DNA of 64,000 nt, from contig FOHD01000010.1 of the NCBI GenBank assembly GCA_900111695.1, positions 20,982 to 84,981 of the forward strand. The letters run 5' to 3'. Under the pieces are notes generated by a model. It searched no databases. It had not been told where the DNA came from and worked only from the letters and a program-made list of their open reading frames with translations. A program made the translations under genes and the position numbers. Position 1 is the stretch's first letter; each line of letters begins with the position of its first letter. The stretch comes from Olsenella sp. KH3B4 (GTDB lineage Bacteria > Actinomycetota > Coriobacteriia > Coriobacteriales > Atopobiaceae). Below, one piece after another: positions 2,734 through 44,041 of the stretch.

Positions 2734-5700
2734 GGCTCAAGTTCAAGGTGCAGCAGTACCAGACGGACGCGACGGATGCCGTGTGCGACGTCTTCGAGGG
2801 GCAGCCCAACCAGGGCGCGGCGGCGTACCTGCGAGATATCGGTACGCTTCCCGTTCGCGGGGGCATGGGAGCACTGTTCAATGCCGGCGACCTACAGCAG
2901 GGCATGGAGGAAGGCTATGCCAACGCGCCCGTGAGGCTCACGGAATCCGAGCTCCTCTCCAACATTCGCCGCGTGGAGCGTCGCAACCAGCTTGACGAGT
3001 CCGAGACCACCTGCCGCGACATGGCGGGAATCGCCTGCCACCTAGACGTGGAGATGGAGACGGGCACCGGCAAGACCTACGTCTACACCAAGACGATGCT
3101 GGAGCTCAACCGGCGCTACGGTTGGTGCAAGTTCATTGTGGTCGTGCCCTCCGTCGCCATTCGCGAGGGTGTGAAGAAGTCGCTCGAGTCCACCGAGCAG
3201 CACTTCTTCGAGCAGTATGGCAAGCGTGTCAACGCCTTCATCTATGACTCTGACCGGCTGAACGAGCTGGACTCCTTCGCGCAGTCCTCGGACGTCTCCT
3301 GCATGATCATCAACATGCAGGCCTTCAACACCTCCATGAAGGAGGGCTCGAACAACAAGGCGTCCCGCATCATCTTCGACGAGCGCGACGACTTCGGGAG
3401 CAGGCGCCCCATCGACGTGATAGCCGCAATGCGCCCCATCGTGATCCTGGACGAGCCGCAGAAGATGGGAAAGAGGGGATCTGCCACCCAGAAGGGCATC
3501 GCGCTCTTCAAGCCCCTCTTCGTGCTGGGCTACTCCGCCACGCACCGGGAGAGGCACGACCTCGTCTACTCCCTCGACGCGCTCGACGCCTACAACCAGC
3601 GTCTCGTGAAGCGCATCGAGGTCAAGGGCTTCAAGCTCAAGAACATGCGCGGCACCGACGCTTACCTCTTCCTCCGGCAGATCCTGGTTACCAAGAACAG
3701 GCCGCCCGTGGCGGTTATAGAGTACAAGAGGATGTCGGCTTCAGGCAGGGTAGGCAAGGCCACGGGCCGCTTCGAGGAGGGAGACAGCATCTACGACGTC
3801 TCTGGCTCGACGAGGCTCGAGGCATATCGTGGCTACCAGATCGCCGGCGGCAACGACGGCGTCGTCCCCGGCGTGGACGGCCGCCCCGGACACGTCCGCT
3901 TCCTCAACGGCGTTGAGATCGAGGAGGGCACCGTCTACAACGACTCCGCCCTCGAGGACATGCAGCGCGTGCAGATACGCGAGACCATCCGGAGCCACCT
4001 CGAGAAGGAGCAGGCGCTCTTCCGCCGCGGCATCAAGTGCCTCTCGCTCTTCTTCATCGACGAGGTCGCGAAGTACCGCGACGTGACCGGCAACGGCGCG
4101 GCCGTCGGCTACGGGAAGGTCTTCGAGGAGGAGTACGCCGCCGCCGTTGCGGACAGGCTCGCGCACCCCACGACGGACGACCTCGCGGACCGGAGCTACC
4201 TGGAGTACCTGAGGCGCGACACGGCGCACCAGGTCCACGACGGGTACTTCTCCATCGACAAGAAGGGCCACGCGGTCGAGTCCAAGCGCGAGAAGAAGGC
4301 CGAGGCGGCGGAGGGCATCGGCATCAACGACGACGACGCCCGGCGCGGCTACGACCTCATCCTCAAGGACAAGGAGCGGCTGCTCTCGCTCGACGAGCCC
4401 GTGCGGTTCGTCTTCAGCCACTCGGCCCTGCGCGAGGGCTGGGACAACCCCAACATCTTCCAGATCTGCACGCTCAAGGAGTCGGGGTCGGAGACCTCCA
4501 AGCGCCAGGAGGTCGGCCGCGGAATGCGCCTCTGCGTTGACCAGGACGGCGTGCGCCAGGACGCCCAGCTCCTCGGGCCCGACGAGGTCCAGCGCGTGAA
4601 CGTGCTCACGGTCATCGCGTCGGAGAGCTACGAGACCTTCGTGCGGGACCTGCAGAGCGACATCAGGGGAACGCTGCGCGAGAGGCCGCAGAAGGTCGAG
4701 GTCGACTTCTTCACCGGAAGGACGCTCGAGGTCGAAGGCGAGGAGGTGAGCTTCTCCGCGGCGGAATCCAAGGCCATCTACAAGTACCTCATCAAGAACG
4801 ACTTCCTCGACGACGCCGACCGCCCCTCCGACGACTTCCGGGCCATGGTGGGGGAGGGGAAGTTCCAGGCCAATGCCATGCACGAGCTGCCCGAGGGCCT
4901 CGACGACGAGGCGCACGCCAAGGCAATCGAGGCGCTCCTCCGCGGGGTCTACGACCCGCACGCGCTCGATGGCATGGTGCAGCGCGCCCAGGAGAAGGTC
5001 ACCGAGAACGCGATCGTTCAGGAGAACTTCGGACGGACCGAGTTCAAGGAACTGTGGGACCGCATCAGCCGGAAGCACAGCTACACCGTCTCCTTCGACG
5101 ACGCGGAGCTCGAGCGCAAGGCCGTGGCGAGGATTGACAGGGACCTCGCGGTGAGCCGGCTACAGTACACCATGACCGCTGGCTCCCAGCGGGACGAGGG
5201 GAGACGCGAGGAGCTCGCGAGCGGGAGGTCCTTCGTCGCTCAGAGGAGCGAGACCCACGATGTGGACGAGGCAACCGCTCCGGTTGCGGTCACCTACGAC
5301 CTGGTGGGCGAGGTCGCCGCAGCGGCCCAGGTCACCCGGGCGAGCGCCGCGAGGATTCTCTCCGCCATATCGCCCCAGGTCTTCTCGCTCTACCGGGTGA
5401 ATCCCGAGGAGTTCATCAAGCGTGCCGGAGGGCTCATCCTCTCCGAGAAGGCCGCGATGGTCGTGGAGCACGTGGAGTACCACGAGACGGACCGCATCTA
5501 CGACACAGCCATCTTCACCTCGCGCATGCCGGACGACGCGAGCAAGGCCTACGAGGCGAGCAAGAACGTCCAGCGCTTCGTGTTCCCGGACAGCCAGGGC
5601 GAGCGCAGGTTCGCCGAGGACCTGGACGCAGCCAGCGAGGTCGTGGTCTACGCCAAGCTCCCAAGGGCGTTCCAGATACCCACCCCGGTAGGCAACTACG

Positions 5701-42375: not shown

Positions 42376-42501
42376 CTAGTGGAGCTTATTCCTTAGCAGC
42401 CACGCAATTGCCATGATGGCAACAATAATGCAAATAAGCACCGGTGCATATGTCACGAGAATAGTGATGATAAGCTCAGGAAATCCAAGCCCGTATATCA
42501 T
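42376..42501 (-). CDS. 41-residue single-helix membrane protein
   Basis: Small frame reading MIYGLGFPELIITILVTYAP, then a long hydrophobic stretch LICIIVAIMAIAWLL and RNKLH. One or two membrane passes with a basic end. The region is AT-richer than its surroundings and the frame is clean from ATG to TAG, but the ribosome-binding site is weak (GAAGTGAG). It lies 21 bases downstream of the exported protein gene on the same strand. Possible helper, holin-like or toxin-like peptide; function unknown. Confidence 0.5.
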   Translation of the reverse strand: MIYGLGFPELIITILVTYAPVLICIIVAIMAIAWLLRNKLH

Positions 42502-42522
42502 GGCCACTCACTTCGATTGCTC

Positions 42523-43089
42523 TTAGTAAAAATGCCCGGTGAACGAAGCGTAAAACTCACAATAGAAATCTCCGACATAGGTTGAGATGTCAGCTACGTC
42601 GCGCATTTCTGCGTGATAATAGATGGCATTCGTTCTTCCGCCATCAAGTATTGCACGGTTGTAGTTTGAGCTAATAATTCTGCCAGCCGAGATATAGATA
42701 GCAGCCCAGTTAAACGGTGATATTTTCCCTGCTGAAGTTACCCCATAATTTGCGGAAATGATAACTGTGTTCGGTAGACCTGCAATTATCAGGTTCTTTG
42801 AAGTGCTTACGGTACGCTGAGATCCAATGGCTCGAGATGCACCGGGAAATACCCGTTGTGCCTCATCTTCGAGGCCATAATATACAGGTTCGCCTTGAAG
42901 TGCCGCTCGCCTGACGGCCCCTTCCCACCGGCAATGAGCCTCCTCACTTCCTGGAATCAATAATGCATCCGAGGCGCCAGCCTCCTCTGCTCTTGCTACG
43001 TTGGGCGAAATTGTCGCCAGTGCAAATGCACTCGCTGCGATAGTGATCAGCTCTCTCCGCGATACATTAATACTATCGAAATCAAGCAT
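42523..43089 (-). CDS. Exported protein with twin-arginine-type signal, unknown function
   Basis: 188-residue protein. The N-terminus has VSRRELITIAASAFALATIS and then an ARAEE cleavage-type site, matching a Tat signal (S-R-R-x-x). The mature part is rich in Ser, Ala, Tyr and Asn (GLPNTVIISANYGVTSAGK, CEFYASFTGHFY at the end) and has two Cys. I do not recognise a family. Base composition is clearly lower in GC than the flanking housekeeping genes, suggesting transfer. It lies between a small membrane protein and the LuxR-PASTA gene, all on the minus strand. Confidence 0.7.
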   Translation of the reverse strand: MLDFDSINVSRRELITIAASAFALATISPNVARAEEAGASDALLIPGSEEAHCRWEGAVRRAALQGEPVYYGLEDEAQRVFPGASRAIGSQRTVSTSKNLIIAGLPNTVIISANYGVTSAGKISPFNWAAIYISAGRIISSNYNRAILDGGRTNAIYYHAEMRDVADISTYVGDFYCEFYASFTGHFY

Positions 43090-43232: not shown

Positions 43233-43964
43233 TTAGGTCGCTACCACTAATACCACGCTTGCCTTCCAGCCGCCCTTCAAGTTGTAGCCGGAAGTGCAGC
43301 CCTCTCCCCAGGAGAAGGCGGAGACGCCCGCCCCAAGTCCCGCCGCGCCTTTCACATTCTTGATTTCGAGGACCTTGCCCGAAGGTAACTCGGATGCCTG
43401 CGCTTCAAATAAGGGACAAAAGCCCGCCTGAGCGACCTCAGAAGCTGCTGCGTCCGCGCGCATGCCAACCACATTTGGGAGGTCGCCATAGTCCGTGGAG
43501 ATAGTGCCGGAGGGAGAGTCTAGGTAGCCTTTATCCTCGAAGGAATGGGCTGGCAAAAGCAATAGAGCAACCAATGATAATGCCAAGCACGCAATAGTTG
43601 CGAGGACAATCCTTCTCGTGGCGCCTGCGTTCGTCTTGCGGCGAGAAATCTCTGCACGTGAGCATTCAGAGGCCGGTGCGTTGTCGGCAGTATCCGTCGC
43701 ATTGGCATTCCGCGTGACCGAGGTAGCCTCCGCCCTCGCCTGAGGAATACTCAAGAACTCTGATCGTGTGGAGACACCAAGTTTCTTGTATCCGCGCTGT
43801 CGGTAGGTGCCAACGGTCGAAGGAGTTACCCCCATGAGCCGTGCAGCCTCCTCAGCAGTCAATCCTTGGGCAACTGTACGTAAAGCTTCTGCCTCACGCT
43901 CGGATAGACCAGCCTCAGACAGCAGCTGCTCGAAGCCAGGAGTGCACTTCTCACTCGCGTCCAA
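43233..43964 (-). CDS. Membrane-anchored LuxR-type HTH regulator with extracytoplasmic PASTA-like domain
   Basis: 243-residue protein. Residues about 18-75 form a LuxR/GerE helix-turn-helix ([40 protein letters not shown]). After a polar linker is one membrane helix ([20 protein letters not shown] near 119-138). The outer part holds a PASTA-like module ([20 protein letters not shown]) and a C-terminal stretch with two Cys. PASTA domains in kinases and penicillin-binding proteins sense cell-wall material. The order gives a ToxR-like one-component sensor. TTG start at 43964 after GAGAGGAGCG. It precedes the exported-protein gene by about 140 bases. Confidence 0.8.
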
Positions 43965-44041
43965 AGTCGCTCCTCTCGCATGCCACGGGATTTAGCTTCC
44001 ATGATAAGCTTCGGCGCAGGCGAAACGTGCTCTGCATGCGC

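Follow-up and report, generated by a model that had tools for sequence, protein, structure and literature searches.

PASTA domains are known mainly from kinases and penicillin-binding proteins, and PASTA kinases share a layout of a cytoplasmic output domain, one membrane helix and an extracytoplasmic PASTA portion. In the ToxR/CadC regulators, the DNA-binding domain is an OmpR-type winged helix. A disulfide has been described in the sensors of CadC and ToxR (PMC3096576, PMC9214523), and a passage on Mycobacterium tuberculosis PknB assigns the putative ligand contacts to the linker that joins two of its PASTA repeats (PMC6428115). Within the Coriobacteriia, the LuxR regulators with 10-12 transmembrane (TM) helices, such as DadR of Eggerthella lenta, are described in part of PMC9734109 as an N-terminal domain of 10-12 helices with a C-terminal helix-turn-helix (HTH). 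More broadly, transmembrane transcription regulators have been defined by a DNA-binding domain together with at least one TM segment and reported as enriched in Coriobacteriia (PMC10269533, as excerpted); the words LuxR, GerE and PASTA are absent from the main text of that paper.

Here, a locus of Olsenella sp. KH3B4 was analysed within a 64,000-nucleotide stretch of DNA (the window, meaning that whole stretch) that encodes a regulator resembling each of these systems in part (Table 1). As in ToxR/CadC, an N-terminal cytoplasmic DNA-binding domain is followed by one helix and a C-terminal extracytoplasmic sensor, here as predicted from sequence and model. The ToxR-like layout proposed in the first-pass annotation therefore agrees in the order of HTH, single TM and ectodomain and differs in DNA-binding family: the window protein has a LuxR/GerE HTH, a PASTA-derived sensor and an Actinomycetota host, and is not a ToxR/CadC member because its DNA-binding domain is GerE-type. 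The cytoplasmic output, one membrane helix and extracytoplasmic PASTA are shared with PknB, PrkC and StkP (passages of PMC4601284 and PMC6428115), whereas the predicted output is DNA binding and a single diverged PASTA replaces the four found in the six kinases checked. Like the DadR-type proteins described in part of PMC9734109, it is a predicted membrane-bound LuxR-type regulator of the same bacterial class set beside candidate target genes, but its N-terminal HTH, one helix and ectodomain place it outside that group. It combines a DNA-binding domain with a TM segment and so is a transmembrane transcription regulator in the sense of the excerpted definition (PMC10269533). Additionally, the ToxR/ToxS and VtrA/VtrC pairs (PMC9214523, in part) are alike in layout, in that a regulator tethered to the membrane has a small membrane-associated partner encoded adjacently; the small protein here is a peptide of ~40 aa, sometimes joined by a Tat-type exported protein. 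In the open-licence literature, supplementary tables aside, no paper on a LuxR-TM-PASTA protein was found among the matches listed. Transmembrane LuxR regulators of Coriobacteriia are already known, and the LuxR-TM-PASTA architecture with its operon appears to be a new form among them.

Table 1. Features of the regulator locus, in window positions
Feature	Position	Strand	Details
Regulator gene	43233..43964	(-)	243 aa; starts at TTG (43962-43964), with GAGGAG resembling a Shine-Dalgarno site at 43970-43975
LuxR/GerE helix-turn-helix	43749..43913	(-)	Residues 18-72; cytoplasmic (predicted); from Pfam, AlphaFold2 and Foldseek
Single membrane helix	43554..43610	(-)	Residues 119-137; from hydropathy, charge and alignment
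PASTA-derived ectodomain	43236..43514	(-)	Residues 151-243; beta hairpin inserted before last strand
Candidate operator TTGTGACAGATTTGCCACAA	43158..43177	(-)	Imperfect inverted repeat, 8/10 arm pairs; between regulator and exported gene
Tat-type exported protein	42523..43089	(-)	188 aa; no family assignment; twin-arginine leader by eye
Small membrane protein	42376..42507	(-)	GTG start gives 43 aa; ATG start at 42501 gives 41 aa (MIYGL...)

The regulator gene stands between a lepA-like gene, which is divergent, and an rpsT gene that runs in the same direction; both names come from reading the translations. Its TTG start is common to all five aligned sequences (the window's and its four closest relatives), among which the purine-rich stretch 5' of the TTG shows small changes. 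A LuxR-type HTH had been claimed for this protein, and the Pfam scan bears it out, with GerE (PF00196) matching residues 20-69 at 40 bits against a curated cut-off of 23.5 (E=3e-10); the AlphaFold2 model gives residues 11-80 a pLDDT of 90-95 by block. GerE was the best match among the 15 Pfam families listed for the regulator, a list in which neither Trans_reg_C (OmpR-type) nor a kinase domain appeared. Foldseek with the whole regulator model reached a best E of 4.7e-3, in rows that include the DNA-binding domains of NarL, DosR and GerE; none of the 505 matches stood at E 0.001 or better, and the best 50 of the 505 were all DNA-binding proteins, with no PASTA chain among them. The NCBIfam PASTA-kinase model matched the regulator only at E 0.0035 (over residues 79-206 and positions 297-413 of the 563 in the model), and a plasmid search found HTH matches only, in three records.

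The regulator contains one hydrophobic segment, of mean hydropathy 2.95, which agrees with the single membrane helix assigned to it previously. Its Cys126 is kept in all 11 aligned family members, and AlphaFold2 models a helix at residues 116-135 at a low pLDDT (41-55 by block). The net charge is +4 in the 15 residues before the helix and -2 after it, so that the N-terminus is predicted to lie inside and the C-terminal part outside; across nine homologues, the cytoplasmic side was more positive in seven and equal in two (L049, L051). When the window gene was compared with L045, L046 and L048, dN/dS was 0.067-0.092 for the HTH, 0.13-0.25 for the ectodomain and 0.61-0.87 for the linker plus TM segment, so that both ends of the regulator are maintained and the linker drifts more freely.

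The PASTA-like nature of the ectodomain, the other element of the first-pass reading, is firm at the level of the family and sub-threshold for the window protein itself. In the full-length window protein, PASTA (PF03793) scored 16.9 bits against a cut-off of 23.2 (E=0.0064, residues 162-201), and the ectodomain alone scored 17.5, still under 23.2; the match covers just the first ~40 residues of the ectodomain. Nine ectodomains were scanned of the 11 members, with L047 and L054 left out for apparent frame shifts near their 3' ends, and all nine matched PASTA (best E 1.7e-5), with nothing else from Pfam at E 1. The homologue L050 lay over the cut-off at 23.5 bits and L049 under it at 21.3. A profile of the ectodomain found matches in 56 of 396 genomes of the class, and all ten proteins scanned from its weaker matches were PASTA proteins; six of them combine a kinase domain with four PASTA repeats, and two have a zinc ribbon. 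The nine matching ectodomains, the score of L050 and the reach of the profile to true PASTA proteins together make the relation firm for the family. Searched against PDB sequences, the same profile gave as its best match a lysozyme entry at E 0.0028, whose aligned stretches are individually insignificant, and PASTA chains (PknB twice, PonA2) only at E 0.18-0.93.

The canonical PASTA fold runs beta-alpha-beta-beta-beta. In the ectodomain model, a strand at residues 160-163 is followed by a helix at 170-179, strands at 182-189 and 197-206, a hairpin (214-219/223-228) and a last strand at 235-242, at pLDDT 58-88 by block and only about 60 for the inserted hairpin. This predicted order would suit a PASTA domain that carries an extra hairpin ahead of its final strand. 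Cys183 and Cys223, the only Cys residues in the window's ectodomain, form a candidate disulfide; both are present in six and both absent in five of the 11 aligned members, position 223 of the frame-shifted L054 being uncertain. Neither of the outcomes set beforehand as telling against the first-pass annotation, a lack of PASTA fold or a protein that is cytosolic and not DNA-binding, came out of these predictions, in which the order of strands and helix is compatible with PASTA.

The search for a LuxR-TM-PASTA architecture that had been proposed as a check yielded 11 members, one of them the window's, spread over 9 of the 140 Atopobiaceae genomes searched, as well as kin with two HTHs and PASTA. 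One group lies between lepA and rpsT (group A: the window, L045-L048) and the other elsewhere in the genome (group B: L049-L054), and in the tree L049 branches between the two. Genomes G117 and G118 each hold one regulator of either group, suggesting that the family was duplicated or moved within the genus. In G116, of the same genus, neither the regulator (at E 1e-8) nor the exported protein (at E 0.01) was found. Among the class-wide matches examined, which are the best-ranked loci and not a census, HTH-TM-PASTA was confined to Atopobiaceae.

Five of the two-HTH kin, all from Atopobiaceae (L096, L100, L106, L056, L059), carry PASTA over the cut-off at 28.7-80.7 bits, with one to three repeats and, by eye, what looks like a membrane segment; read in the same way, L094 belongs with these two-HTH proteins too. 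Two further two-HTH regulators, L057 (3811-4965) and L060 (4161-5138), are without a PASTA match and end in the C-terminal motifs 'VNENGQRFG' and 'INENDQTFGS', respectively; from these motifs, the sensor appears to have been swapped on a common LuxR-TM chassis. By reading of the sequence, the L059 regulator lies just upstream of a gene that we take to be desulfoferrodoxin-like. PASTA proteins with a Tat-like leader and without an HTH were also seen, in L093 (three PASTA stretches by Pfam) and in L091 and L092 (by eye). At L055 (about 3270-4590), a 98-aa HTH ORF is succeeded by a membrane-helix-like segment in another frame, without PASTA, and then by operator-like half-sites and a different exported-looking protein; this locus is either an assembly frame shift or a sensor-less variant.

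Both neighbours named in the first-pass annotation, the exported protein and the small membrane ORF, are present and conserved in relatives. The exported gene adjoins 6 of the 11 regulators (the window's, L045, L047, L048, L051, L052), and at the paralogous loci L051 and L052 both the regulator and the exported protein are only 43-44% identical to those of the window. Its dN/dS was 0.165-0.188 (window vs L045, L048). The NCBIfam Tat model matched three of nine members of the exported family (best E 1.7e-4), the window's not being one of them, and TatC is encoded in all eight genomes of the genus, the window's own included. Beyond Tat signals, no family was found in the Pfam, NCBIfam, PHROGs, PADLOC and PDB sequence searches, and the structure model has a mean pLDDT of 35, its C-terminal half being beta-rich only at that low confidence. 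Two bacteriocin-type assignments were rejected: Bacteriocin_IId matched below its cut-off (E=0.053) and was dismissed as chance, and Lactococcin 972 (PF09683) was over the cut-off in none of 13 genomes, with seven weak matches, none at the exported gene.

In the class, 25 of 396 genomes hold a match to the exported protein at E 0.01 or better. The six strongest homologues beyond the genus (E 1.6e-11 to 4.4e-16) come from two further families within the order, all others being weaker than 1e-4, and no LuxR gene was recognised beside these six when the loci were read by eye. Among ORFs of at least 50 aa, a membrane-type ORF of 52-59 aa lies directly downstream in three of the six. L132-L137 form a Coriobacteriales family of Tat-type exported proteins with the pattern ELWAEAV...TILDGGRT...YAEFY, for which no named family was found. 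The small membrane ORF has counterparts at 10 of the 11 regulator loci, the window's included, and none at L049; its product is by sequence nearly all membrane helix, and its dN/dS was 0.46-0.60 (window vs L045, L048). Since five of the 11 loci lack the exported protein and L049 lacks the small one, neither is obligatory. Separately, repeated palindromic stretches of the ACACATTCGGCAACGATTGTGTG type, intergenic and REP-like, were observed at 4080-4150 of L051 and 3' of the small ORF in L050 and L053.

The gap of 143 nt between the regulator and the exported gene contains the candidate operator. Among five close loci, 74 of its 143 columns are invariant, and the best 16-column stretch is TGACAGATTTGCCACA, the core of TTGTGACAGATTTGCCACAA, with 15 of 16 invariant. 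A conserved inverted repeat, TGTGGCAA/TTGCYACA, lies just 3' of the regulator gene, and in group B, whose loci are divergent, half-sites of this type directly follow the stop codon of the regulator. An unbiased 8-mer test of downstream regions (window, L049, L050, L051, L053, L054 and L055; 150 nt per region, with 260 nt taken at L055) recovered TGTGGCAA/TTGCCACA in five of seven, a result reached by none of 300 dinucleotide shuffles, which ignore common ancestry (L050/L053, L058/L059 and L060/L061 are related pairs); the same test on seven upstream regions, a control that shares this ancestry, found nothing beyond chance. A spaced-pair score was strong at seven of 12 loci (0/200 single-base shuffles), moderate at four (L046, L047, L053, L055; 4-5/200) and no better than chance at L048 (36/200), and is partly circular because its consensus was taken from the same loci. 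The operator pattern used had one match in the window's own genome and none for the reversed-pattern control. A strict three-box pattern gave eight matches in 140 genomes (reversed control 0), only two of them beside family regulators, and is not specific.

Core half-sites were also found upstream of the genes of the two-HTH kin themselves, with at least one in eight of nine and two in four of nine (0/500 shuffles each). Half-sites of the GTGGCAA/TTGCYAC type occur upstream in four of the five PASTA-type kin tested (not L106), suggesting autoregulation. Among the nine two-HTH kin, the core half-sites form pairs with a spacing of 17-18 nt in L056, L058 and L059, and the right half-site stands 22 and 23 nt before TATACT in L058 and L059, respectively, an activator-like position. 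The core half-site is absent upstream of five of the six distant exported homologues, with two isolated ones at L132; the conserved site therefore tracks the regulator. In the window's gap, a promoter scan recognised no promoter, and scanning the locus for terminators and Rfam families yielded nothing of use. The conserved operator-like site and the co-conservation agree with the earlier view of the two neighbours as likely targets or partners.

Combined, these results point to a single-pass transmembrane one-component regulator that probably controls the adjacent short operon through the downstream inverted repeat. Evident at the level of sequence are the architecture, purifying selection, gene co-conservation and a conserved inverted repeat that follows the regulator from locus to locus. 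The N-terminal LuxR/GerE domain would face the cytoplasm and the C-terminal PASTA-derived domain the outside, and the membrane-anchored regulator, probably as a dimer, would bind the inverted repeat just 3' of its own gene, which would be its operator. From there it would control the adjacent promoter, and with it the Tat-exported protein (when present) and the membrane protein of ~40 aa, presumably by activation rather than repression. The regulator may be switched by a signal from outside the cytoplasm that acts on its PASTA domain, and one of the two neighbouring proteins, small membrane or exported, may serve as its partner or feedback ligand.

The nature of the signal admits several readings. 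In the one put forward with the first-pass annotation, the PASTA domain takes muropeptides or lipid II as its ligands and so couples wall status directly to transcription, and the PASTA homology of the ectodomain, the kin with up to three PASTA repeats and the natural ligands of PASTA kinases, given in parts of two papers as DAP-type muropeptides (PMC4601284) and lipid II (PMC6428115), all speak for it. Muropeptide sensing by the ectodomain is a fair hypothesis because of these kinases, and by analogy it is possible but not supported: the single PASTA is diverged, has a hairpin insert and is matched by Pfam over its first ~40 residues only, the inter-repeat linker in which the putative PknB contacts lie (PMC6428115, in part) is absent here, and no wall gene is directly adjacent, the neighbours reading as lepA, rpsT and two unknowns. 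Direct wall sensing is thus considered unlikely, and we judge just as doubtful the wider proposal of a kinase-free route from wall to transcription, in which PASTA would drive LuxR through one helix and control the exported and micro-membrane proteins in a module diversified in Atopobiaceae. A tentative alternative is that the ectodomain ligand is the exported (or small membrane) protein, the operon reporting on export or on its own product. The paralogous regulators L051 and L052 keep their exported partner, the small membrane protein accompanies 10 of the 11 regulators, and ToxR/ToxS and VtrA/VtrC provide a precedent (PMC9214523, in part); yet the exported protein is missing beside five of the 11, its distant homologues have no recognised regulator beside them, and a small protein that is nearly all membrane helix leaves no room for a ToxS-like domain.

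Control of activity by the Cys183-Cys223 disulfide state, as in a sensor of redox or export stress, would be in keeping with a pair that is jointly present or jointly absent across the family and supplies the only Cys in the window's ectodomain. The tree, however, shows one joint Cys loss only, the members without the pair keep the operator-like site and the small protein, and the pair may be purely structural, so that this reading is quite improbable. Very improbable is that the protein is a membrane-tethered relic or a general DNA-binding protein unlinked to its neighbours, the repeat serving another factor. The indirect assignment of the operator, the lack of a regulator match (E 1e-8) or exported match (E 0.01) in G116 of the same genus, and the HTH without PASTA domain at L055 would be compatible with it, but dN/dS values of 0.07-0.09 in the HTH and 0.13-0.25 in the ectodomain, and the recurrence of the repeat beside divergent regulators, argue against it.

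If the proposed transmembrane one-component regulator operates as predicted, the joining of PASTA to a DNA-binding domain would let a single protein report on whatever this subtype of PASTA detects. Given the candidate DNA site and the two genes that are candidate targets, the question of the ligand becomes testable with a simple reporter. The architecture also adds a second type to the membrane LuxR regulators that are abundant in gut Coriobacteriia, and the locus may link an uncharacterised Tat-type exported family of Coriobacteriia to a specific regulator.
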